Assembly (NCBI GenBank): GCA_037139415.1
Contig: JBAXGN010000039.1
Location: 1 to 46,133 of the forward strand
Direction: 5' to 3'
Origin: Verrucomicrobiota bacterium
Lineage (GTDB): Bacteria; Verrucomicrobiota; Verrucomicrobiia; Limisphaerales; Fontisphaeraceae
Length of the DNA stretch: 46,133 nt
Every line of letters starts with the position of its first letter. Position 1 is the first letter of the stretch. The notes under the pieces were generated by a model. That model did not search any database and was not told the DNA's origin. It saw only the letters and a program-made list of their open reading frames with translations. The translations under genes and the position numbers were made by a program. Below, piece by piece: positions 33,221-46,129 of the stretch.

Positions 33221-34234
33221 TTAATGGCTGGCCTTCACTTGGTCCACCCAGGCTTGGTTGTCGAGGTACCATTTGACCGTTTCCCGGATGCCGCGCTCGA
33301 AGGTGTATGCCGGCGTCCAACCCAGTTCCCGTTCGATCTTGGAGGCGTCAATGGCGTAGCGGCGATCGTGGCCCAAACGGTCTTTCACAAATGTAATCAG
33401 CTTGCGTGATTGTCCGCCAAGCTGCGGGGCAAATTCGTCCACCAAATCGCAGATTAATTCCACGATGCGAATATTGGGCCATTCATTATGGCCGCCGATG
33501 TTGTACGTTTCCCCATCGCGGCCTCGGTTCAATACCTGCCAGAGCGCCTCGGCATGATCCCGCACATACAACCAGTCCCGCACATTCATGCCGTCGCCAT
33601 ACACCGGGATGGCTTTGCGGGTCAGTACACTCTGAATCACCACTGGAATGAGTTTCTCTGGAAATTGGTAGGGCCCATAATTATTGGAGCAATTGGTGAT
33701 TACCCCGGGCAACCCGTAGGTGTGATAGTAGGCGCGCACCAGCATGTCGCTGGCAGCTTTGCTGGCCGAATACGGCGAGTTGGGCGCATACGGCGTGGTC
33801 TCAATAAAATGGCCGGTGGCACCCAGGCTGCCAAATACTTCATCGGTGGAAACGTGATGAAAGCGTTTGCCAGCCCACTGCCCGTTCCAAGCGTCGCGAC
33901 ACGCCTCCAGCAAATTGAACGTACCAACGATGTTTGTGTGGATGAAATCACCGGGACCGCTGATGCTACGATCCACATGCGATTCCGCCGCCAAATGCAT
34001 CACCTGCGTGATGGCGTGCTGGCGCACCACGGCCACCACCGCTGGCTTATCGCGCAAATCCACTTTTTCAAACACATACTTTGGATGGCGCGCCACCGAC
34101 TCGAGGTTGGCCGGATGCCCGGCGTAGGTAAGGCAATCCAAATTGACCAGCTTCTGGATTTCCGTTCGCTGGATGATGTGATGAATCAGATTGGAGCCGA
34201 TAAAACCGGCCCCGCCGGTGATAAGCAGGTTCAT
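33221..34234 (-). CDS. rmlB: dTDP-glucose 4,6-dehydratase
   Basis: 337 residues, extended short-chain dehydrogenase. NAD motif [10 protein letters not shown], the Thr-Asp-Glu-Val-Phe-Gly-Ser motif of dehydratases, and catalytic Tyr-Ser-Ala-Ser-Lys. It converts dTDP-glucose to dTDP-4-keto-6-deoxyglucose. Last gene of rmlA-rmlC-rmlD-rmlB; its ATG overlaps the rmlD stop codon by 4 bases. Ends 34 bp from the convergent DUF6807 gene. Confidence 0.96.
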
Positions 34235-35115
34235 AGTTGTTTATCCAACACCATTCGCAAGCTGTCCTCCCACGTTGGAAGCACGAGCCCGAAGGTATGT
34301 TTTAATTTGTCACACGATAGCACCGAATAGGCGGGCCGCCGGGCGGGCGTCGGGTAATCCGCCGTGGTAATGGCGTCCACCTGTCGGCACTTCTTACCTT
34401 CCTCCGGCATGAGGCGGACGATCTGGTCCGCAAATTGGTGCCAACTGGTGTGCCCGGAAGAACAGAGGTGATACACCCCTTTACGCCCGTTGAAATCTTT
34501 CTGGCCAAGCAGTTGCTGCACAGCCAACGTGGTCGTGGCGGCAATCATGCGAGACCACGTGGGGGAACCAAACTGGTCGCTCACCACGCGCAGTTGTTCG
34601 CGCTCGCGCGCCAGACGCATCATGGTGAGCATAAAATTCTGGCCACGCGCGCCATATACCCAGCATAACCGGAAAATTAGATGCGCACCGTCCACCTGTT
34701 GCACCGCCAGGTCGCCGTCCAGTTTGGTGCGACCGTAAGCGCTCAGCGGCCCAGTGGCATCCGTTTCCACATACGGCTCACGCTTGGCTCCGTCATAAAC
34801 ATAGTCGGTGGAATAATGAACCAACAAAGCACCAAGTCTTTTCGCCTCCTCCGCCAGGATACCGGGTGCCAAGGCGTTGATTTTAGCGGCTAGGTCCAAT
34901 TCCTTTTCCGCCTTGTCCACGGCAGTATAGGCGGCAGCGTTCACAACGATACGCGGGCGCACTTCCCGCATCCAGTTGCGCAACGAATCCGCCTGCGAAA
35001 AATCTATCTCCGGGTAATCCACCGCAACCACTTCGCCGAGAGGCGCCAGGGTTCGACGCAGTTCCCAGCCGACCTGGCCGTTTTTACCGATGATGAGGAC
35101 TCGTGGCCGATCCAT
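34231..35115 (-). CDS. rmlD: dTDP-4-dehydrorhamnose reductase
   Basis: 294 residues, SDR fold. Cofactor motif [10 protein letters not shown], the [12 protein letters not shown] signature, and Tyr-Gly-Arg-Thr-Lys as catalytic Tyr-X3-Lys. It performs the final reduction to dTDP-L-rhamnose. It is 9 bp after rmlC and overlaps rmlB. Confidence 0.95.
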
Positions 35116-35124
35116 GCGTATGCC

Positions 35125-35670
35125 TTAATAGAGACGTTCGACGGGTATATCTTTGAGCAATGGTGCTTGGGCATCCCGCTGGGAAAGAATGGGCGTCTTG
35201 ACGGGCCAATCAATAGCGAACTCGGGATCATTCCAGCGAATCGCTTGCTCATCCTTGGGCGAGTAATAGTCGGTACATTTGTAATGGAACAATACCGTCT
35301 CGCTCAACACCGCAAAGCCGTGGGCAAAGCCAGGAGGTATATAAAACTGGCGTTTATTTTCTGCGGAAAGCACCAAGCTAAAACAGCGTTTAAAGGTCGG
35401 CGATTGACGCCGGATATCCACCACCACGTCAAAGATTTCCCCCTGCAACACCATCACCAGTTTGCCTTGGGCGGCCGGGTTTTGAAAATGCAACCCGCGC
35501 AACGTGTCTTTGCGGGAAAAAGAAACGTTATCCTGGACAAAATCCTCAGTAATCCCCGCCGCCCGATAACGCTGTTGGTTCCAGGTTTCCATGAAAAAAC
35601 CGCGTTGGTCCCCGAATACCTTCGGTTCCAGCACCAGCAGCCCCTCGAACTCATTGCGAATGATATTCAT
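35125..35670 (-). CDS. rmlC: dTDP-4-dehydrorhamnose 3,5-epimerase
   Basis: About 181 residues from ATG 35670, chosen because it lies 4 bp past the rmlA stop codon and matches the usual RmlC start (Met-Asn-Ile-Ile-Arg-Asn-Glu-Phe-Glu-Gly); an upstream ATG at 35715 would overlap rmlA. Cupin barrel with Val-Phe-Gly-Asp-Gln-Arg-Gly-Phe-Phe and Arg-Gly-Leu-His-Phe-Gln, whose His is the catalytic base, and Pro-Pro-Gly-Phe-Ala-His-Gly-Phe. It inverts C3 and C5 of the keto sugar. Confidence 0.95.
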   Translation of the reverse strand: MNIIRNEFEGLLVLEPKVFGDQRGFFMETWNQQRYRAAGITEDFVQDNVSFSRKDTLRGLHFQNPAAQGKLVMVLQGEIFDVVVDIRRQSPTFKRCFSLVLSAENKRQFYIPPGFAHGFAVLSETVLFHYKCTDYYSPKDEQAIRWNDPEFAIDWPVKTPILSQRDAQAPLLKDIPVERLY

Positions 35671-35674
35671 GCCA

Positions 35675-36547
35675 TCAAAAACCCGTTTGGCTGAGCCGGA
35701 AGAGGTATTCGCCATATTCGTTCTTGCGCAGTGGTTCCGCCAACCGCTGCAATTCTTCCTTGGAAATCCAGTTTTGCCGGAAGGCGATTTCCTCGGGGCA
35801 ACAGACCATCAAGCCCTGCCGTTTTTCCAACGCGCCAACGTAATTCGAGGCTTCCAGCATCGCCTCGTGGGTCCCGGTGTCCAGCCAGGCAATGCCCCGC
35901 CCCATCATTTCCACCCGCAACTGGCTTTGCTTGAGATAGAGATTATTCACATCGGTGATTTCCAACTCGCCGCGCGGGGAGGGCTTGAGTTCGGCCGCCA
36001 ACTTCACCACTTGGTTGTCGTAAAAATACAAGCCGGTCACCGCGAAGTTGGACTTCGGCTGTTTGGGTTTTTCTTCAAGACTGATGGCCTTCCCGTGCGC
36101 GTCAAATTCAACCACGCCATACCGTTGCGGATCGCGCACGTAATACGCAAACACCGTTGCCCCGCTGGAGCGGGCGGCCGCTGATTCCAACAGCCCCTGA
36201 AAGCCGTGGCCGTAAAAAATGTTATCGCCCAAGACTAGGCAAACATTTGAGTCGCCAATGAATTCGCGGCCAATGATGAACGCCTGGGCCAAACCGCCGG
36301 GATTCGGCTGCACGGCATACTGGATGGATATTCCCCACCGTTTACCATCGCCCAATAGCGCCGCAAAGCGCGGGGTATCCTCAGGGGTGCTGATAATTAA
36401 AATATCGCGAATTCCCGCCAGCATCAGGGTGGCGAGCGGATAATAGACCATCGGCTTGTTATAGATGGGCAGCAGTTGCTTGCTAACCACTGTGGTCAGT
36501 GGGTAGAGCCGTGTACCAGAACCGCCTGCAAGAATTATGCCTTTCAT
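35675..36547 (-). CDS. rmlA: Glucose-1-phosphate thymidylyltransferase
   Basis: 290 residues, nucleotidyltransferase fold. Start motif [16 protein letters not shown], then Pro-Met-Val-Tyr-Tyr-Pro-Leu, Leu-Gly-Asp-Asn-Ile-Phe-Tyr-Gly and Glu-Lys-Pro. It makes dTDP-glucose from glucose-1-phosphate and dTTP; the first and promoter-proximal gene of the rhamnose operon. Confidence 0.96.
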
Positions 36548-36880: not shown

Positions 36881-39800
36881 ATGAAAGTAACGTTTGTTTA
36901 TCCGCGGTTTGAGAAATTCCTCTCCAGTTTGCCGGAACTGGATCAAGGACTCATTAACTATTTCCTGGGTGATTTCACCACGCCACCCTCCCTGGGCATC
37001 CCCCTGCTGGCGGCGATGACGCCGCCGGAAATCGATGTGGAATTGGTGGATGACAACAGCGGGCAACCGATTCCCTATGACGCTCCCACCGACCTGGTGG
37101 CCATCAATTGCTTCACGCCGCAGGCGGCCCGGGCGTTTGAAATCGCCGATGCCTATCGCGCCCACGGCAAGAAGGTGGTGATGGGCGGACTGTTCCCGAC
37201 CTTCATGGCGAGCGAATGCCTGAAGCACGCGGACGCCGTGAATGTGGGTGAGGGCGAACCAACCTGGCACCAAATTCTCAAGGATGCGCAAGCTGGCACA
37301 CTGAAGCCGCGCTACATGGGGGGAGCCTCGACGAATATGGCGCAGGTGCCAGCGGCGCGACGGGAGATTTTCTACCAAAACAACTTCTACGACTGGGATG
37401 AGGACCTGGTGCAGGTGATGCGCGGCTGCTCCTATACGTGCGCCATGTGCGCCCTGCCGGCACAAATGGGGGGCCGCATCCGGTTCCGTCCCATTGAGCG
37501 GGTGGTGGAGGAGATCAGCCGGTGCAAGCATGAAAACGTCTATCTGGCGGATGATATGCTGTTTTTCCAGCACCGCCGCATCAATGAATATGCGCGCGAA
37601 CTGTTCACCGCCCTGGAACCGCTGCAGAAGAAGTATTTTGTGTCGTCCACGATGGCATTGAATACGGACAATGCGTTCCTGGATCTTGCCGCGCGCGCCG
37701 GGGTACGGAATTTTTACTGCACGCTGAATGTGGACCCGTTTTCAATCAAAGCACTGCAGGGCGAGGCGCGGGAACGCCAGATGCTGATTGATCTGGTGAA
37801 GTCCATTGAGGACCGAGGCATCCGTTTCTTCGCCTCGTGCGCGCTGGGGCGTGATTGGGATGATGAACGCATCGCGGACCAAATCCTGACCCTCTTCGAT
37901 GCGGCCAAAATTCGCACCGCCGAGTTTTTCATCTTCACACCGTACCCGGGCTCGGTGCATTGGGATCGCATGTTGCGACAGGAACGGATCTTTGACTTCA
38001 ACTGGCGGCATTACAACGGCGCACATGTGGTGTCCAAGCCGCAGAACCTGACCCCGGACCAATTGCGGAAACAGTTCGTGAAAGTCTGGCGGGAGTTTTT
38101 CAAGATGCAGAAGGCCCAGCACGCGGCACATCTTGAACCAGCGACGTGGCAAGACGGGGTGCAGGTGCTGGGCAAGCCGATGCAACGGCAGGGCGCGCGC
38201 ACGCAGGCGGTAGTGACGGGCGTTGGCATACTAAGCCCAATTGGAAATGATCCGGAAACCGTGACCGAGGCGCTGCGAACGGGACGCCACGGCCTGACGG
38301 CGGTTTCAAAATATGACAGTCGGCATTTCCGGACGAACCTGGGCGGGGAGATCAAGAACTTCAACCCGGCCGACTGGCTCAGTCCGGCAGAATTCCAGGA
38401 ATACGACGATCCGTATTTGCATTACGCCATCGCTGCTGCCCGTTTGGCATTGCGCGACGCGGGATTGGACTGGAAGGAATTGCGGCGCGACGTCGGCCTG
38501 GTGCTGGGCACCTGCAACGGCGGGCTTTGTTCCGCCGAGGCGGAATATGCCTGGAAGCACGGCCGCAGCTCACGCGCCTTTGATGAGCGCATGAATTTGC
38601 ACGCGCAGTTCTTCGGCTTCGGGAAAGCGATGGCCAACGCGCTGAAGATCGGTGGGGAAACTTATGTGGTCACCACGGCCTGCTCCTCCACCACGGTGGC
38701 GCTGGGATTGGCGCAAATGCTGATTCAGCGCGGCTATTACGATACCGTGCTGGTGGGCGGCGCGGATATATTGTGTGTGGCCAACGTCTCGGGTTTTGAC
38801 GCACTGAAAGCCACCTCCAGCGGCCGCATCGCCCCGTTTTCGCAACCGTGCGGGCTGAACATAGGCGAAGGGGCCTGTTTCTGGGTGGTGGAAACGCTGG
38901 AGAAGGCGCTGTTGCGCCACGCGCGCTGCCGGGGGCGCATCGCCGGCCATGCCACCAGCGCGGATGCGTATCATCCCACCACACCCGATCCCCGTGGGTT
39001 GGGCGTCTGCCGCACGCTGACGAATGCGCTGAGTGATTCCGGGTACAGCCTGGCGGAAATTGGCTGCATCAACGGGCACGGCAGCGGCACCGAAGCCAAT
39101 GACAAGGCGGAATCGCGCGGCGTGGCCAAGTTCATTGACGGCCAGCCGATTCCCCTGGTGTCCACCAAATCGTATTTTGGCCATTGCATGGGGGTGACCG
39201 GGATTCTGGAAGCCACCAGCCAGTTGCTGGCCATGAACCATGATTTCATCCCCCCCACGCTGAATTTCAGCGAACCGCGCCCCGGCTGCGCGCTGGATTA
39301 TGTGCCGAACGAAGCGCGCCCGAAAAAGTACGAGGCGTTCATTTCCGCCAACTACGCCTTCGGGGGCAACAACGCGGCGGTGGTGGTCACGAAATGGGAT
39401 GCGCCGCTCAATCCCCCCGTGCGCGCGGCGGAACGGGTAGTGATCACCGGCCTGGGAACGGTGACGGCGGCCGGGCTCGGCATCCAAAAGACTTTGGAAC
39501 AACTGCGTAACAATGCGGTGTGCCTGAGCCCCGCCCGGGGTTTCCCGCTGAATGGGGCGCGGGCGAAGCTGATCGGGCATGTGCCGGAGTTCAAGGCCGC
39601 CGAGGTGGATCGCCGCATTGATTTTGCCAGTCTGAATCTGATCAGCCGCTTTGCGGTGGCGGCGGGGCGACTGGCGCTGGATCATGCCGGGCTGAAAATC
39701 ACGCCGCAGAACGGGGATGACGCGGGGGTGGTGATGGGCGTATGCAATGGCCCTTCAGAGATGGGGCACATGGACCGGGTCTTTACCTCGGAAAATTTTG

Positions 39801-40648
39801 CGGCGGATGTGACGAGCTTCTCCAACATCACCTCCAATTCCACCGCCGGATGGGTCTCCAACACGCTTTACCTAAAAGGCGTGAACGCCTCGCTGGCGTC
39901 GGGACCGCACGCGGGCTTGCAGAGTCTCGCCTATGCGTATGATTCACTAGTGGAGAACCGCGCGAAGGTGATCCTGGCCGGCGCGGCGGATGAAGCGTAC
40001 GCCCAGACCTTTTACAACTACGACGGCATGGACTTCCTGTATGCGGGCGAGGAAGAGTCGGATTACCGGCTACGCACCACAGTGGAACGGCGCAAGGTGC
40101 TGGGCGAAGGCGCGGCGATGATCTGCCTAGAGACCGCCACGCACGCCACCTGCCGCAATGCCAATATCCTCGCGGAAATGCTCGGTTACGGCATGAGCAT
40201 GGACGGTGACGGATTCACAGCGGCGAATCTTCGTCCCGAAGGGCTCATCCACGCGGTGCAACTGGCGTTATCCCGCGCCAGTGTCGCCGCCCGGGAAATC
40301 GGCCTCCTTGTGTGGGCGCCGCAAGGCAACCGCCAGGATTTGAAAGTGCTGGAGGCAGGCCGGAGCGTGTTCGGCGAGCGCTTTGCGCAAATGCCGCTGG
40401 CCGCGACCACGTTCAATACGGGCTACATTGAATCCGCTTCGATCCTCGTCAGTCTCGCCGCCGCACTGCAATCATTGCACGCTGCTGAAAGCACGCTCTG
40501 GCCGCAGCGCACCGGCCTGCCAGAGTTGGACGCACGCGCCTTACCGCAACCGCCCGATTACATTCTGGCGATGGCCAGCACCGATTTGGGATACAACTAC
40601 GCCGCCGTGTTCCGGCGCAGATGGAAAGCCGCCGCCGCCGCCGAATGA
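36881..40648 (+). CDS. Radical SAM - ketosynthase - ketosynthase-like (CLF) fusion protein
   Basis: 1255 residues in three parts. Residues 1-145 are a cobalamin-binding-type domain (Pro-Ser-Leu-Gly-Ile-Pro-Leu-Leu-Ala-Ala-Met-Thr) without an Asp-X-His-X2-Gly motif. Radical SAM core about 175-385 has Cys183-X3-Cys187-X2-Cys190, like DUF4070-linked enzymes. Residues 441-838 are a complete ketosynthase, with Cys601 (Thr-Thr-Ala-Cys-Ser-Ser), His733 (Asn-Gly-His-Gly-Ser-Gly-Thr-Glu) and His768 (Lys-Ser-Tyr-Phe-Gly-His). Residues 852-1246 are a second ketosynthase fold in which Cys is Pro1009 and both His are gone, as in chain-length factors. The stop codon overlaps the next gene (ATGA). The product is unknown; no acyltransferase, ketoreductase, dehydratase or ordinary ACP is present. 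This fusion is not one I know as characterised. Confidence 0.9.
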   Translation: MKVTFVYPRFEKFLSSLPELDQGLINYFLGDFTTPPSLGIPLLAAMTPPEIDVELVDDNSGQPIPYDAPTDLVAINCFTPQAARAFEIADAYRAHGKKVVMGGLFPTFMASECLKHADAVNVGEGEPTWHQILKDAQAGTLKPRYMGGASTNMAQVPAARREIFYQNNFYDWDEDLVQVMRGCSYTCAMCALPAQMGGRIRFRPIERVVEEISRCKHENVYLADDMLFFQHRRINEYARELFTALEPLQKKYFVSSTMALNTDNAFLDLAARAGVRNFYCTLNVDPFSIKALQGEARERQMLIDLVKSIEDRGIRFFASCALGRDWDDERIADQILTLFDAAKIRTAEFFIFTPYPGSVHWDRMLRQERIFDFNWRHYNGAHVVSKPQNLTPDQLRKQFVKVWREFFKMQKAQHAAHLEPATWQDGVQVLGKPMQRQGARTQAVVTGVGILSPIGNDPETVTEALRTGRHGLTAVSKYDSRHFRTNLGGEIKNFNPADWLSPAEFQEYDDPYLHYAIAAARLALRDAGLDWKELRRDVGLVLGTCNGGLCSAEAEYAWKHGRSSRAFDERMNLHAQFFGFGKAMANALKIGGETYVVTTACSSTTVALGLAQMLIQRGYYDTVLVGGADILCVANVSGFDALKATSSGRIAPFSQPCGLNIGEGACFWVVETLEKALLRHARCRGRIAGHATSADAYHPTTPDPRGLGVCRTLTNALSDSGYSLAEIGCINGHGSGTEANDKAESRGVAKFIDGQPIPLVSTKSYFGHCMGVTGILEATSQLLAMNHDFIPPTLNFSEPRPGCALDYVPNEARPKKYEAFISANYAFGGNNAAVVVTKWDAPLNPPVRAAERVVITGLGTVTAAGLGIQKTLEQLRNNAVCLSPARGFPLNGARAKLIGHVPEFKAAEVDRRIDFASLNLISRFAVAAGRLALDHAGLKITPQNGDDAGVVMGVCNGPSEMGHMDRVFTSENFAADVTSFSNITSNSTAGWVSNTLYLKGVNASLASGPHAGLQSLAYAYDSLVENRAKVILAGAADEAYAQTFYNYDGMDFLYAGEEESDYRLRTTVERRKVLGEGAAMICLETATHATCRNANILAEMLGYGMSMDGDGFTAANLRPEGLIHAVQLALSRASVAAREIGLLVWAPQGNRQDLKVLEAGRSVFGERFAQMPLAATTFNTGYIESASILVSLAAALQSLHAAESTLWPQRTGLPELDARALPQPPDYILAMASTDLGYNYAAVFRRRWKAAAAAE

Positions 40649-42948
40649 GCCAACGCGTCGTCATTACGGGCATGGGGCTACTTTCCAGCGCGGGTGCGAA
40701 TCTCGCCGCCGCCCGCGCGCAGTTCATTGCTGGACAATCCTGCCTCGCGCCCATTCCAGAAGCGCCCGCGATGGGATTGCGCGCCCGCTTTGCCGGGTTG
40801 CTGGCCGAGTTTCCAAGCCTTCCTGACCTTCCGGCGGAGCTTCAGTCGCAGGATAAACATGTACTCATGGCCATTGCCGCCGCGCGGGAGGCCCTGACGG
40901 CGGCAAACGCGAACCCCGCCGGTTATGGCCGGCGCATAGGGCTGATTTTCGCCACCTGTTCCGGGCCGATGCCGCGCATTGAAGCCCATTACGAGCGCAT
41001 CATTCAAGGCGATCTACGCCTGACCAAAGATGAACTGTTCGCCAAACGGTATCACGTCGGCGCGCGCGTTTTGGCTCATGTGTTGGGCATTCAGGGTTAC
41101 AGCACCACGGTTGTCACGGCGTGCTCAGCCAGCACGGCGGCCATCGCGGTGGCCGGTGATTTGATCCGTTGCGGCCTGCTGGATGCCGTCTTGGCGGGTG
41201 GCGCGGACGCATTCGCATTGAGCACGCTCGCGGGCTTCGATGGCCTCAAGGCCACCAGTGATGCCCGTTGCGCCCCTTTCTCCAAGCCCAGTGGTTTGAA
41301 CCTGGGCGAAGCAGCGGGCTTTGTGTTCCTGGAAACGGCGGATGCCGCGCGCCGCCGCAACGCCCCCGTGCTGGCCCACCTGCTGGGTTCGGGCATGAGC
41401 AACGACGCGTTTCATTGCAGCTCGCCCGACACTGGCGGACGTGGCCTCGCGGCGGCGATGACGCGCGCCTTGCGCCACGCCGGGATCACTCCCGAACAAA
41501 TCACGTACATCAACGCGCACGGCACCGGCACCGAGGCGAATGACAAGGCCGAATGCAAGGCGCTGCGCAAAGTTTTTGGCGACGCCGCCGGGCGGGTGCC
41601 GATGAGTTCCACCAAATCCATCGCGGGCCATTGCCTCGGCGCGGCGGGCGCATTGGAAGCCATTGCCAGCCTGACGTGCGCCGCAGCGGGAGTATTGCCG
41701 CCGACGGCCAACTTCACCAGCTTGCGCGATGGCTGCGCCCTGGATTGTGTGCCGGACGCCGGGCGGGCGTGGCTCGGCACGCGCACCTTCCTCTCCAATA
41801 ACTCGGCGTTTGGTGGACATAACGCCAGTGTGGTCTTCACCGCCGGTGATGCCCCGCTCCTCCCCCAGCCGGCACCCCCCAGCGCTGAACCGATTCACCT
41901 CACCGCCTGCGGCGTGGTCAGCGCGCTCGGCTTGGGCGTCCACACCTTGTTTGAGGCCGCCGACCAATCCGGCATTCGCGCCGTCAACTATCCCGATCTC
42001 CCGCCAATCCACGCGGGTTTGGTGGATGCCGCACTCCTGGAACACCACGATCGCCGCCTGGATTTGCGGCACATGGACGCCGCCAGCCGCTTTGCCACTC
42101 TGGCGACCCGCCTGGCGATTCGCGAAGCGGGTTATCCCGAGAAACCCAACTCACTGGCCGAACTTGGCTTCCACCTGAACCAATCCGCTGGCCCGTCCGA
42201 GGCCGAATCGGCGTATCTTACCTCCTTCCTCAAGCACAACCGGCGTGTGACGCAACTCATGGCGTTCCCGTACATCGTCCCCAGCTCCGTGGCGGGCAAC
42301 GTCTGCCGCGCCCTGGCCTTGACGGGCCACAATTTGACGCTCAATGGCGGACCCGGCGCGGGCCTGCTTGGTCTGGCCCCGGCCATCTGCGCCTTGCGCG
42401 CCGGACATGTGCAAGCGCTGCTCACCGGGGCGGTGGATGAACTCTCTCAACGCATCCTGACCGACCAACAGATGGCCGGACTGCTCCCCCTGGCAGCCAA
42501 CCTCCATCCCGGCGAAGGCGCCGTCACGCTCCTGTTGGAAACCGAAACCCACGCCCGCGCCCGTGGCGCCCGCACCCTGGCCACCGTTTGCGGCATGGCC
42601 TTTGGCACCGAAAACCAACACTGGCATCTGGCGGACGACGACCTTTCCGCGCTGCAAGCAACCGTGTTGGACGCCTTGCAACAAGCCAATCTCCGCCCGC
42701 AAGACATCGGTGCCGTGTGCCCTGCCCTCCCGGCGGCGCGCTTTGCGGAATTGGCCGCCGCCCTCTGCCCCGCGTGGCGCGAACGCACCAGCAGCATCGC
42801 CACCCGCACCGGCTGGCTGGAAGGCGCGCAACCGTTGCTCGACCTGGCCTGCGCCTTGCGCCAACCGGCCAACTCCGAATACCTCCTTTCCATCACCAGC
42901 TCGCAATTCGGCACCAATGGGGCGGTGCTCTGGCGGCGGGCGGGCTGA
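40645..42948 (+). CDS. Ketosynthase - ketosynthase-like (CLF) fusion protein
   Basis: 767 residues from ATG 40645, chosen for its ATGA overlap with the previous gene; an ATG at 40621 exists. Residues 1-400 are a full ketosynthase: Cys160 (Val-Thr-Ala-Cys-Ser-Ala-Ser-Thr), His292 (Asn-Ala-His-Gly-Thr-Gly-Thr-Glu), His329 (Ser-Ile-Ala-Gly-His). Residues 417-765 repeat the fold without catalytic residues: the Cys region reads Asn-Gly-Gly-Pro570-Gly-Ala-Gly-Leu, and the His-Gly-Thr and Gly-His regions are altered. Thus both genes carry an active ketosynthase followed by a stripped partner with Pro at the Cys site. They would form KS/CLF-like pairs that build a poly-beta-keto or acyl chain. Which ACP they use is unknown. 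Confidence 0.9.
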   Translation: MSQRVVITGMGLLSSAGANLAAARAQFIAGQSCLAPIPEAPAMGLRARFAGLLAEFPSLPDLPAELQSQDKHVLMAIAAAREALTAANANPAGYGRRIGLIFATCSGPMPRIEAHYERIIQGDLRLTKDELFAKRYHVGARVLAHVLGIQGYSTTVVTACSASTAAIAVAGDLIRCGLLDAVLAGGADAFALSTLAGFDGLKATSDARCAPFSKPSGLNLGEAAGFVFLETADAARRRNAPVLAHLLGSGMSNDAFHCSSPDTGGRGLAAAMTRALRHAGITPEQITYINAHGTGTEANDKAECKALRKVFGDAAGRVPMSSTKSIAGHCLGAAGALEAIASLTCAAAGVLPPTANFTSLRDGCALDCVPDAGRAWLGTRTFLSNNSAFGGHNASVVFTAGDAPLLPQPAPPSAEPIHLTACGVVSALGLGVHTLFEAADQSGIRAVNYPDLPPIHAGLVDAALLEHHDRRLDLRHMDAASRFATLATRLAIREAGYPEKPNSLAELGFHLNQSAGPSEAESAYLTSFLKHNRRVTQLMAFPYIVPSSVAGNVCRALALTGHNLTLNGGPGAGLLGLAPAICALRAGHVQALLTGAVDELSQRILTDQQMAGLLPLAANLHPGEGAVTLLLETETHARARGARTLATVCGMAFGTENQHWHLADDDLSALQATVLDALQQANLRPQDIGAVCPALPAARFAELAAALCPAWRERTSSIATRTGWLEGAQPLLDLACALRQPANSEYLLSITSSQFGTNGAVLWRRAG

Positions 42949-43033
42949 ATAAACGGTGCCGCTGGAACATGGTGCAGCCATGGCTGGTCTTTATGTTTTG
43001 AAAGCCCGACGGAAAAAGACTATCTTTGGGGGC

Positions 43034-44989
43034 ATGAGATGGTCGCAATGGTTGCTGCTGCTGTGCCTGTGCCTGTGCCTTGTGGGCAACAGGGGCCAAG
43101 CGACTGCATTAAAGGACATGGCGGTCCAGGTCAGCGCCTTGGTGCAAACCAATCCCCCGAAGATTACCCTGCAATGGCCTGTTGACTCCTTGGCGACGAA
43201 CTACACCGTCTATCGCAAAACCCGCGATGCCACCAATTGGGGTGCCGGGTGGGTGCTCGGCACGAATGTATCACGCTATGAAGACACCAACGTCTCCGTG
43301 GGCTGCGCCTGGGAATACCGTGTGCAGAAAGGTGGCTGGGCAGGCAGCGTGCCCATCCCGTACGAAGCGGATGGCTACGTCTATGCGGGCATTGAAACCC
43401 CGTTGACGGAGAACCGTGGCAAACTGATTTTGCTGGTGGATCAAACCGTAACCAATGCCCTGAGCGAGGAGTTGATCCGGCTCAAGTGGGACCTGATTGG
43501 CGATGGATGGCAGGTATTGCGTCACGATGTTCTACCCACCGACTCCGTCACCAATATCAAAGCCATCATCCAGGCGGAATACAATACCGACACCAACCAG
43601 GTCAAAGCGGTCTTCCTCCTAGGCCATGTGCCGGTGCCGTATTCCGGCGACATGGCCCCCGATGGTCATCCCGATCATACCGGTGCCTGGCCCGCAGATG
43701 TCTTTTACGGAGATATGCACGGCGTTTGGACCGACGCGATCACCGGCACCAACCAGAGCGCTTACCTGCGTATTCGCAATCTTCCCGGGGATGGCAAGTA
43801 TGACCAGGATTACCTGCCCGCCAGCGTGGAATTGCAGGTGGGCCGGGTGGACCTTTACCAGATGCCCGCGTTCTCCTTGAGCACCGTCGAACTATTGCGC
43901 CAATACCTGCGGAAAGACCATCATTTCAAGCACCGTGATTTCACGGCGGAACGGCGCGCATTCATTGACGATCAGTTTGGGCTGGTCTGGTGGAGCAGCA
44001 CCAATTACGAAGCCTTCGCCGCCAATGCCTGGCGGGATTTCTCCACGTTCTTTGGCCCGAGCAACTGTGCACCCGGCAGTTGGTTCGGTTTGCACGCCGG
44101 CCAGACTACCTTGACCAACCAGAGTTTCCTCTGGGCGTATGGCGGCAGTGGCGGCTATTATACCGGCGCTTATGAAATCGGCAGCACCAGCGATTTTGCC
44201 ACCAAGGATTCGCAAGCCGTGTTCACCATGCTGTTCGGCAGTGAGTTTGGCGATTGGGATTCCGCAAACTGCTTTTTACGCGCCCCGCTCGCCGCCAAAT
44301 CGTTCGGCCTGACTTGCGTCTGGGCCGGGCGGCCCTGGTGGGAATTTCATCACATGGCACTGGGGGAAACCATCGGGTTCAGCACGCGGGTCTCCCAGGA
44401 GAATCCGTACCTGTACGACGCCAACGGCGACGCCGTTCGCCTGGTCTCCGTCGCCCTGATGGGCGATCCCTCCCTGCGCATGCATCCCGTGGCCCCGCCC
44501 GGACCGTTGCTGGTGGCCTCGAACGCCACCGGCGGCTTGGACCTCTCCTGGCGTCCCTCGCCGGATACCGTGGCGGGTTACCACGTGTATCGGGCGGTTT
44601 CCAACGGCGGCGCATTCCTCCGGCTCACCACCGCGCCGATCAGCGGCACGAACTTCACGGATTCCCTGGCGACCACCAACCTCTACATGGTGCGCGCCAT
44701 CAAGCTGGAAACCTCCGCCAGCGGCACCTATTGGAACGCCAGCCAGGGCGTGTTCCAGAATGCCGCGCGCACCTTTGGCCTGCCCCCGATTTCCGCCATG
44801 GCGGGCATGACGAATGGATTCCAGATCGCCTGGCCGGCGGTGTGGCCCGCCATCCTGCAACAATGCAGCAGCCTGACGACTCCCGGTTGGACCGCCGCCA
44901 CCAACGCGATCACCGCCACCAACGGCAACAACCGCGTCATCCTCCCCCCCAACGGCCCGCTCCAGTTCTACCGCTTGGCGGAGCCGTGA
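43034..44989 (+). CDS. Secreted FN3-domain protein with degenerate gingipain-like fold
   Basis: About 651 residues from ATG 43034 (GGGGG just upstream), which begins a Leu/Cys-rich signal peptide; starts at 42956-42980 would add charged residues before it. The first ~110 mature residues look like a fibronectin-III unit (Ile-Thr-Leu-Gln-Trp, Tyr-Thr-Val-Tyr-Arg-Lys). The centre resembles the caspase-like fold of C25 peptidases (Val-Phe-Leu-Leu-Gly-His-Val-Pro-Val-Pro; Pro-Ala-Asp-Val-Phe-Tyr-Gly-Asp), but the sites for the catalytic His (Tyr-Gly-Gly-Ser-Gly-Gly) and Cys (Leu-Phe-Gly-Ser-Glu-Phe) are changed. A second FN3-like unit (Leu-Asp-Leu-Ser-Trp-Arg; Gly-Tyr-His-Val-Tyr-Arg) follows. It lies 85 bp after the ketosynthase gene. 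Confidence 0.7.
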   Translation: MRWSQWLLLLCLCLCLVGNRGQATALKDMAVQVSALVQTNPPKITLQWPVDSLATNYTVYRKTRDATNWGAGWVLGTNVSRYEDTNVSVGCAWEYRVQKGGWAGSVPIPYEADGYVYAGIETPLTENRGKLILLVDQTVTNALSEELIRLKWDLIGDGWQVLRHDVLPTDSVTNIKAIIQAEYNTDTNQVKAVFLLGHVPVPYSGDMAPDGHPDHTGAWPADVFYGDMHGVWTDAITGTNQSAYLRIRNLPGDGKYDQDYLPASVELQVGRVDLYQMPAFSLSTVELLRQYLRKDHHFKHRDFTAERRAFIDDQFGLVWWSSTNYEAFAANAWRDFSTFFGPSNCAPGSWFGLHAGQTTLTNQSFLWAYGGSGGYYTGAYEIGSTSDFATKDSQAVFTMLFGSEFGDWDSANCFLRAPLAAKSFGLTCVWAGRPWWEFHHMALGETIGFSTRVSQENPYLYDANGDAVRLVSVALMGDPSLRMHPVAPPGPLLVASNATGGLDLSWRPSPDTVAGYHVYRAVSNGGAFLRLTTAPISGTNFTDSLATTNLYMVRAIKLETSASGTYWNASQGVFQNAARTFGLPPISAMAGMTNGFQIAWPAVWPAILQQCSSLTTPGWTAATNAITATNGNNRVILPPNGPLQFYRLAEP

Positions 44990-45211
44990 GCCGGGCGTGA
45001 AACAACCCAGTAGAAGACGACGTAAGGAGACTCCAATTTAAACCGTAAAGCCCCGCAAACATCCGGAATGTTTGAGTCTCGTGACCTCGACACCTACGAC
45101 TAAACCCCGCCGCAACCGACGGAAGGAGCTTTGCCTGCCAGTGATGTTTGGCTCGACCACAACTCTATCGCAGCATTGACCCGGCGCGGCGGTTTCCTTT
45201 ACTCTCGCCCC

Positions 45212-46129
45212 ATGGTCAAGCAAGCGAAGTCAAAGAACTCCACCGAAGCTCCCCCGGAAACCCCGGCGGACAATAAGCCTGCAGGTCGGCCTTCCGCGCT
45301 CGTGGATACCCGTGTCGTCTATTGCGGCGATAACCTCGAACAGTTGCGCAAGTTGCCCGATCATTGCGTTGATTTGATCTACATTGACCCGCCGTTCAAC
45401 TCCAACCGCAACTACGAAGTCTTTTGGGGCGAGACCAAGGAGAAGCGCGCCTTCGAGGACCGCCACGCCAGCACCCAAGCCTATATTGACTACATGCGCC
45501 CCCGGTGCTTTGAACTCGCCCGCGTCCTCAAAAAGACCGGTTCCTTCTTTTATCATTGCGACTGGCATGCCGCCCATTACGTCAAGGTCATGCTCGATCA
45601 GCTTTTCGGGGAGAATAATTTCGTCAATGAAATCATCTGGAAGCGGCAATCGTCGCATAACGATGCCAAGCAAGGCTCTAAACACTTAGGCCGCGTACAT
45701 GATACCATTTTCTTTTACTCTGGAAGTGACGACTACTATTTCAAGCACCTGTACCGCCCTTACGACCAAGACTACATCGAAAAGAATTACAAACACGTTG
45801 AACCCGGAACGGGCAGACGTTATTCACTTGGTGACCTGGGCGCACCGGGTAACGACGCTCCAGAGAAAGGAAATCCAATTTATGAGTTTCTTGGGACTAA
45901 ACGCTCTTGGCGGTTCAGCAAGGAAAGAATGGAACAACTTCAAAAGGAAGGGAGAATCGTCCAAACAACACCAGGCTCTACTCCACGGCAAAAGCGCTAT
46001 TTGGATGAAATGCCCGGTGTGCCTGTCGGTACTGTGTGGGATGACATCGGACTAATTCAGAGCCATAGCGAGGAAAGTCTAGCCCCAGTTTACGAGTTAT
46101 TTGAAGGGTGCCTCGGAAGTTATTGTTAA
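45212..46129 (+). CDS. DNA (adenine-N6/cytosine-N4) methyltransferase, beta-class, C-terminally truncated
   Basis: 305 residues from ATG 45212. The N-terminus has Val-Tyr-Cys-Gly-Asp-Asn-Leu and catalytic motif IV Tyr-Ile-Asp-Pro-Pro-Phe-Asn-Ser (Asp-Pro-Pro-Phe at 59-62), then Phe-Tyr-His-Cys-Asp-Trp-His and Ile-Ile-Trp-Lys-Arg. In this class motif I (Phe-X-Gly-X-Gly) comes at the C-terminus after a Gly-Tyr-Pro-Thr-Gln-Lys-Pro segment. Here the sequence turns unfamiliar after Ser-Glu-Glu-Ser-Leu and stops at 46127, so motif I is missing. A frameshift, deletion or junction at about 46080 is likely, and the window ends 4 bases later. Restriction or standalone methylation role cannot be judged. 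Confidence 0.8.
   Translation: MVKQAKSKNSTEAPPETPADNKPAGRPSALVDTRVVYCGDNLEQLRKLPDHCVDLIYIDPPFNSNRNYEVFWGETKEKRAFEDRHASTQAYIDYMRPRCFELARVLKKTGSFFYHCDWHAAHYVKVMLDQLFGENNFVNEIIWKRQSSHNDAKQGSKHLGRVHDTIFFYSGSDDYYFKHLYRPYDQDYIEKNYKHVEPGTGRRYSLGDLGAPGNDAPEKGNPIYEFLGTKRSWRFSKERMEQLQKEGRIVQTTPGSTPRQKRYLDEMPGVPVGTVWDDIGLIQSHSEESLAPVYELFEGCLGSYC

Follow-up and report, generated by a model that had tools for sequence, protein, structure and literature searches.

Does an enzyme that joins a radical S-adenosylmethionine (SAM) domain to a ketosynthase (KS) in one polypeptide modify the chain that it builds? Neighbouring radical SAM (rSAM) and KS genes have long been suspected of making unusual lipids, in particular ladderanes, although without proof of joint action on one chain, and the question is raised by contig JBAXGN010000039.1 of a Verrucomicrobiota bacterium (assembly GCA_037139415.1), the analysed stretch of which, 46,133 nucleotides in length, is referred to here as the window. 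A sequence-only reading of the window had described one of its genes as an rSAM enzyme fused, in a single uninterrupted frame of 1255 residues, to an intact KS followed by a stripped KS fold. This single chain, joining a B12-fold rSAM domain, an intact KS and a chain-length factor (CLF), is confirmed as real (Table 1); C183, C187 and C190 of the rSAM motif and C601, H733 and H768 of the KS lie exactly where that reading had placed them. The covalent fusion is conserved in two phyla together with a dedicated acyl carrier protein (ACP), which amounts to genetic evidence for a radical step coupled to chain building, and it offers a single expressible polypeptide for testing that coupling.

The genome collection was scanned with two peptide patterns from the rSAM half, so that divergent fusions will be missed. 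Sixteen loci were recovered, 15 of which are 61-76% identical to the rSAM half of the window (L065-L079; L068 and L071 belong to genomes G582 and G586, and L066, L067 and L079 to G080, G069 and G500, respectively), and the sixteenth, from Muiribacteriota, encodes a distant (25%) and unfused rSAM protein. The records of the 15 close relatives are titled Verrucomicrobia, Verrucomicrobiales or Verrucomicrobiota, Kiritimatiellae or Kiritimatiellia, Chitinivibrionales (an order within Fibrobacterota), Fibrobacter and Fibrobacterota; Kiritimatiellia is a phylum of its own according to NCBI, and G500 is counted here in the phylum of the window. In all 15, a single open reading frame (ORF) covers both the rSAM and the KS part, and the full rSAM-KS-CLF architecture is present in 12, the remaining three being truncated at contig ends. 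Across the 13 full-length fusions, the window included, 366 residues are invariant, among them E419, P420, T422, G426 and G431 at the join, and the rSAM halves form a single clade with 100/100 support in the rSAM tree.

The fusion is sparsely distributed, being present in three genomes from an even draw of 196 of the order to which the window belongs. An rSAM relative was found at 1e-50 in 23 of 387 genomes of the phylum and, among the short loci fetched for those 23, a KS occupies the same ORF in the window and G500 only. In the second phylum, Fibrobacterota, 17 of 167 genomes (six of them the genomes of L070-L075) match the fusion at 1e-150, with 54-67% identity to the L071 copy; 16 of these matches reach at least residue 1245 of 1251 and none contains an internal stop. 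The phyla that keep the fusion, which the sequence-only reading had wished to see mapped, are Verrucomicrobiota and Fibrobacterota, and no stop was found to separate its rSAM and KS parts in these copies. The source assembly consists of 378 contigs, which might invite the suspicion of a chimera or of a read-through artefact. Such an origin is scarcely credible, and an assembly artefact was rejected, since relatives in two phyla carry the same architecture and the incomplete copies among the close relatives are cut by contig ends.

The fusion was modelled as two separate parts. In the AlphaFold2 model of the rSAM half (predicted local distance difference test, pLDDT, 88.4; predicted template-modelling score, pTM, 0.87) the CX3CX2C motif, which is invariant in 27 aligned rSAM sequences, lies within a radical SAM barrel, as in the radical SAM superfamily, and the N-terminal domain is a B12-type Rossmann domain by its Pfam match and by its likeness to the folds of OxsB, TsrM and CysS. 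The top fold match is AprD4 (6fd2; Z 32.7, root-mean-square deviation, rmsd, 3.1, 379 residues aligned, 16% identity), followed by MgmA (9ccb; Z 27.2, rmsd 3.4, 342 aligned), CysS (Z 26.3, rmsd 3.7, 379 aligned), OxsB (Z 24.7, rmsd 3.9, 379 aligned) and TsrM (Z 24.0, rmsd 3.4, 372 aligned), with MiaB close after (Z 23.7). A profile search with the 27 sequences, 14 fused and 13 unfused, likewise placed AprD4 (109.4 bits) above MgmA (88.9 bits). AprD4 is a radical SAM 1,2-diol dehydratase that may lack cobalamin. Like the fusion, AprD4, MgmA, CysS, OxsB and TsrM combine a B12-type Rossmann domain with an rSAM barrel, but they carry no fused KS, act on other substrates and are only 12-19% identical in the fold alignments. 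Of the cobalamin-type N-terminal domain claimed from the sequence, the B12-type fold has stood in Pfam and in the model, while cobalamin binding is only predicted. According to an excerpt of the review PMC13331322, the residue beneath the cobalt belongs to the loop that follows strand 3; in all 13 fusions this loop reads C77-F78-T79-P80-Q81 and contains no His, Arg or Trp.

Two ketosynthase stretches were found in the fusion by Pfam (ketoacyl-synt N, 444-676, and C, 685-796), and NCBIfam returned FabF-type matches at about 441-839 with a weaker KS-like stretch at 850-1102. The KS half reaches the broad model NF005589 (395.7 against a cut-off of 387) and falls short of the FabF equivalog TIGR03150 (424.4 against 493.75). 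In the joint alignment its Cys, His, Lys and His at 601, 733, 763 and 768 are kept in 13 of 13 full-length fusions, which is the active site of a FabF-like beta-ketoacyl-ACP synthase, whereas the second half has lost all four in 13 of 13: column 601 holds Pro (nine), His (three) or Ala (one), column 733 Ala (13), column 763 Thr (12) or Ser (one), and column 768 Tyr (12) or Phe (one). A KS fold devoid of the catalytic Cys and His and paired with a KS is a CLF, so that the intact and the stripped ketosynthase of the sequence-only reading form a KS-CLF pair.

The model of residues 437-1255, built from 13 sequences (pLDDT 82.3, pTM 0.90), matches best, over both halves, the PfaC KS-CLF of polyunsaturated fatty acid (PUFA) synthases (6riw; TM 0.79, rmsd 4.9, 920 columns). 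PfaC likewise carries KS and CLF in one chain, but it is only 16% identical, its structure contains no rSAM domain, and the PUFA synthase PfaA model TIGR02813 is missed by the fusion (85.2 against a cut-off of 1010.1). In the single-chain fold list, the first match of the KS half is the ishigamide KS (6kxd/6kxf; Z 50.3 over 394 aligned residues, rmsd 2.4, 34% identity), on a par with FabF (2alm, Z 50.0); unlike in the fusion, KS and CLF of the ishigamide system are separate chains, and neither it nor FabF has an rSAM domain. The product of the ishigamide KS/CLF is a polyene. In sequence, the KS half has 9s5h ('3-oxoacyl-ACP synthase', 227 bits) as its best solved relative.

Table 1. Position and make-up of the fusion gene and of the gene that overlaps it in the window.
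Feature	Coordinates	Strand	Details
rSAM-KS-CLF fusion gene	36881-40648	+	1255 residues, ATG start, uninterrupted frame
N-terminal radical SAM half, residues 1-435	36881-38185	+	B12-type Rossmann domain and CX3CX2C; AlphaFold2 model, fold matches
B12-binding PF02310, residues 38-128	36992-37264	+	Pfam, 33.1 bits, cut-off 32.1
Radical_SAM PF04055, residues 178-331, C183/C187/C190	37412-37873	+	Pfam, 27.9 bits, below cut-off of 29.5
Ketosynthase half, residues 441-840, C601/H733/K763/H768 intact	38201-39400	+	Pfam, NCBIfam, joint alignment, folds
Chain-length-factor half, residues 850-1250, devoid of the catalytic residues	39428-40630	+	NCBIfam, joint alignment, KS-CLF model
ATGA overlap, fusion stop and next gene start	40645-40648	+	Overlap present in 8/9 loci
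Second KS-CLF protein, one chain, 767 residues from ATG 40645	40645-42948	+	KS C160/H292/H329 intact; CLF half without catalytic Cys

In the window, L065, L067, L069-L073 and L076, the fusion is succeeded by a second gene that encodes a KS and a CLF as a single polypeptide; the KS residues of this polypeptide are kept in all nine copies of the joint alignment, and L065 is the only one of these loci without the ATGA overlap. This second gene does not follow the fusion in L068, L074 and L079; L066, L075, L077 and L078 end within 782 bases of the fusion.

The partners that the sequence-only reading had proposed to look for elsewhere adjoin the fusion in its relatives. At L071, L072, L074 and L076, genes for an ACP, a GcvT-like protein, FabG and FabD come after the fusion, whether or not the second KS-CLF gene is present, and the last two adjoin the ACP and GcvT-like genes in L068, L069 and L109 as well, so that a ketoreductase and an acyltransferase accompany the ACP; a 4HBT thioesterase joins the cassette in L068, L069, L076 and L109, and the dehydratase FabZ, found at some loci, lies beside the second KS-CLF gene in L069. 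All eight fusion genomes tested contain the ACP and GcvT-like genes; one of them supplied the queries, to which the copies in the others are 70-87% (ACP) and 53-84% (GcvT-like) identical. Within the order, a GcvT-like gene at 1e-80 occurs in three of the 196 genomes, the same three that bear the fusion, a coincidence with a chance probability of 8e-7 if kinship is ignored. In the genome of the window itself, orthologues of the ACP, GcvT-like and thioesterase genes lie on a different contig (C158). The pathway context was invisible to the sequence-only reading because the window lacks most of the pathway genes.

The GcvT-like protein, a folate-type protein encoded at 5704-6813 of L105 on C158, hints at a folate-linked one-carbon step; its matches to the GCV_T and gcvT models are all under the cut-offs. 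A role as a YgfZ-type rSAM helper was considered, and the KGC-x-GQE motif of YgfZ-type proteins is absent by eye. Near FabG and FabD, L107 (10610-12376) encodes a GNAT domain fused to a CobD/HisC-like pyridoxal phosphate (PLP) enzyme, a family found in five mapped loci (L069, L106, L107, L109 and L110).

The widest context is that of L068, where the fusion begins at 48.5 kb of contig CAIXUZ010000044.1 (C44 of G582) and the cluster spans about 50 kb onward; for several of its families, the identification comes from the copies in G080 or G069. The fusion is followed by genes for an ACP, a GcvT-like protein, 4HBT, FabG, FabD, the GNAT/PLP fusion, FabZ and an acyltransferase, then by those for a C45-type protein, LolA, a deacetylase, KS-CLF, a second ACP, CLF, KS and a second 4HBT, later by those for an LpxL-type acyltransferase, a lyase of the aromatic amino acid lyase family and an RND/acyltransferase fusion, and last by a CLF/KS/rSAM/TIGR04072 row (TIGR04072, 418.4 bits), AMP-ligases and an MMPL/methyltransferase fusion. 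An HpnN-like RND protein joined to an LpxL-type acyltransferase (L113, 3754-7095) and an MMPL exporter joined to a SAM methyltransferase (L116, 10950-14111) are both encoded on the contig that bears the fusion in G582.

Compared with a typical aryl polyene or flexirubin gene list, this cluster resembles, by its gene families, an aryl-polyene/flexirubin cluster with added radical SAM modules. The likeness comprises two ACPs, KS, CLF, KS-CLF, FabG, FabZ, 4HBT thioesterases, LolA, AMP-ligases, MMPL, acyltransferases and an ammonia-lyase-type gene, whereas the fusion, the GcvT-like gene and the TIGR04072/rSAM/KS/CLF row are additional; flexirubin family models are missed where such genes were scored, and the LolA of G080 gives 85.5 of 125 bits with LolA2_flexi. 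While this set is mostly together in G582, the Fibrobacterota loci have the core cassette without aryl-polyene-type genes within 5-6.5 kb downstream, and in the genome of the window orthologues of many cluster genes are spread over five other contigs: TIGR04072 (394.9 bits, cut-off 360), rSAM, KS, CLF and LolA on C116, the ACP, GcvT-like and 4HBT genes on C158, KS-CLF, ACP and deacetylase on C5, KS, CLF and 4HBT on C80, and the lyase (77%) and LpxL (68%) on C312. The first four of the C116 genes listed (L017, 6343-11490) form an unfused row of overlapping or nearly abutting genes, TIGR04072, a second rSAM, KS and CLF, which bears out the statement of the sequence-only reading that rSAM and KS/CLF genes occur separately.

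The TIGR04072 family, named 'lipid biosynthesis B12-binding/radical SAM protein', was scored across genomes. Of the 16 fusion genomes, 13 have a member above the cut-off, against none of the 14 controls; in the order this holds for 20 of the 196 genomes, including all three with the fusion (9e-4 by chance, kinship ignored). The fused rSAM itself is not a TIGR04072 enzyme, an identity that was rejected at 51.0 of 360 bits. In the rSAM tree a 97/89 node unites the fused clade with the rSAMs that adjoin TIGR04072 in the L076-L079 genomes, and the nearest row to the fused clade, a lone rSAM from G343, sits on a long branch. This tree, which has several long branches, does not support a derivation of the fusion from a C116-type unfused row, because the C116-type rSAMs do not form the sister group of the fused clade. 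Another unfused pairing is seen in G343, where an rSAM gene overlaps a KS-like gene (L059, 7729-10036).

Given the observed architecture, catalytic residues, folds, partner genes and co-occurrence, the fusion may be viewed as an iterative lipid or polyketide synthase whose rSAM domain radically alters the ACP-bound chain, whatever the reaction. We consider this reading mildly probable as a whole, that is, the pathway together with the action of the rSAM domain on the chain; the pathway is supported by the partners in the cassette, the conservation in two phyla, the KS and CLF residues and the PfaC-like fold. Its substrate, order of steps, reaction and product are what we infer. The fusion would be bifunctional and belong to an iterative type II polyketide or fatty-acid-like pathway, in which the PfaC-like two-in-one KS-CLF part would, judging from its family, extend the chain on the dedicated ACP, FabG would carry out ketoreduction, FabD malonyl loading and, at some loci, FabZ dehydration. 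The chain may remain a polyene, because no enoyl reductase is among the cassette genes named, no search having been aimed at one. The rSAM domain would cleave SAM at its 4Fe-4S cluster and alter, by radical chemistry, the chain borne by that ACP, as the sequence-only reading had supposed of the chain as it grows; this is the natural reading, and the step itself is put forward conditionally. In Verrucomicrobiota the product would probably be a lipid-like, possibly aryl-primed, polyene. A second rSAM/rSAM/KS/CLF gene set, of the ladderane family, would take part in making it, and proteins of the LpxL, LolA and MMPL types would acylate or transport it.

Several observations weigh against this reading. 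In the window, the fusion is preceded by a divergent rhamnose operon and the gene pair is followed by an unrelated protein, the pathway partners not being adjacent, and the FabG, FabD and FabZ of the cassette were not located in the genome of the window among the selected stretches compared. The closest solved relative of the rSAM half is a dehydratase, and curated rSAM families are missed by far (TIGR04013, 64.4 of 251; TIGR04072, as given above; HpnR, 47.1 of 650). TIGR04072 misses its cut-off in three of the 16 fusion genomes and passes it in 17 genomes of the order that have no fusion. A FabI-type enoyl reductase gene (L018, 10115-10885), which lies about 2 kb away from the C5 KS-CLF/ACP pair, speaks against a pure polyene; it may be a housekeeping copy, and the genes mapped for the G582 cluster do not include it. 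In the genome of the window, the lyase fits histidine ammonia-lyase models best (474 of 524 bits) and the flexirubin tyrosine lyase less well (373 of 700 bits), all of its matches being under the cut-offs, and a lyase at least 67% identical to the G582 copy is present in four of 16 fusion genomes, that copy included, with 32-42% identity in seven and no match at 1e-20 in five. Given this histidine-lyase-like fit and patchy presence, an aryl starter is no more than a candidate.

The nature of the radical change can be narrowed within the synthase reading, of which methyl transfer, ring closure and dehydration or oxidation are finer versions with overlapping probabilities; some other reaction is conceivable too. 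Methyl transfer by a cobalamin-dependent rSAM domain, which would C-methylate the chain as CysS, TokK or HpnR do their own substrates, is a tentative first candidate, short of an even chance. The B12-binding match and the folds of MgmA, CysS and TsrM agree with it, and cobalamin rSAM enzymes are mostly methylases, as stated in an excerpt of PMC13142503, but AprD4 surpasses MgmA by both fold and profile and the loop after strand 3 is devoid of the His, Arg or Trp that might lie beneath the cobalt. An AprD4-like domain, possibly cobalamin-free, that strips a hydroxyl group from the acyl-ACP or introduces a double bond into it would account for that ranking; it is rather unlikely, with the identity over the AprD4 fold alignment as low as given above and FabZ-type dehydratases already present in some clusters.

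Closure of the KS-CLF polyene into carbocycles by the fused rSAM and the TIGR04072 enzyme, in line with the proposal for anammox lipids, is given a similarly low chance. The distribution of TIGR04072 among fusion genomes and within the order, and the 97/89 node, point towards it, as do the rSAM/B12 genes and active-site-less FabF genes of anammox clusters (Rattray 2009, excerpt of PMC2649909). On the other hand, ladderane lipids are stated to be restricted to anammox bacteria in excerpts of PMC7298704 (2020) and PMC9902471 (2023), an excerpt of PMC9821293 gives the ladderane route as unproven, TIGR04072 passes in fusion-less genomes, the fused rSAM is no TIGR04072 protein and has the lone G343 rSAM as its nearest row, and a FabI-type gene lies near one KS-CLF pair. 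That the fusion and the TIGR04072 enzyme make ladderane-like or radical-cyclised lipids in non-anammox Verrucomicrobiota and Fibrobacterota is quite improbable; if true, it would make the unsolved ladderane chemistry accessible for study on one gene. A merely physical fusion, whose halves share a pathway, differ in substrate or timing and are held at a fixed ratio, is also improbable, if slightly less so: the unfused rSAM-KS-CLF row in the same genome is presumably functional, but the join is conserved in the 13 full-length copies and all 15 close relatives keep rSAM and KS in one ORF.

The domains and the cluster style are known, and the covalent arrangement is the new element: no description of an rSAM-KS-CLF fusion was found in the literature searched, a weak absence, as this comprised open-access texts only. 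The nearest parallel is the type II fatty-acid synthesis clusters of anammox bacteria, which, like the TIGR04072 rows, combine rSAM/B12, KS and active-site-less KS genes, but in which the rSAM and KS genes are described as separate (excerpt of PMC2649909); a true TIGR04072 gene, distinct from the fused rSAM, lies elsewhere in the genome of the window. The swf clusters of sponge symbionts pair a polyketide synthase (PKS) with a B12-type rSAM gene of unassigned role, but the PKS is of type I and the rSAM gene is separate (excerpt of PMC3908369). 'Ladderane' clusters have been reported in Verrucomicrobia (excerpt of PMC7298704) and, with function unassigned, in several phyla including Verrucomicrobiota and Fibrobacterota (excerpt of PMC9902471), and the fusion cassette provides a concrete gene set for comparison with these unexplained clusters.

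The neighbours of the gene pair in the window were also considered as partners. A complete dTDP-rhamnose set, rmlA/rmlC/rmlD/rmlB, lies at 33221-36547 on the minus strand, divergent from the fusion and with all members above curated cut-offs, and a 677-residue protein with a sub-threshold Peptidase_C25 match is encoded at 42956-44989 (+). Both were rejected as partners: in tblastn searches of L065-L079 the rhamnose set was not found beside the fusion, the C25-like protein had no homologue, and a weak nucleotidyltransferase match in L066 (27%) was the only hit. Promoter and terminator scans of the window gave no more than shuffled sequences did. The last ORF of the window (45131-46129, +) encodes an N6/N4 DNA methylase and stops four bases short of the contig end.

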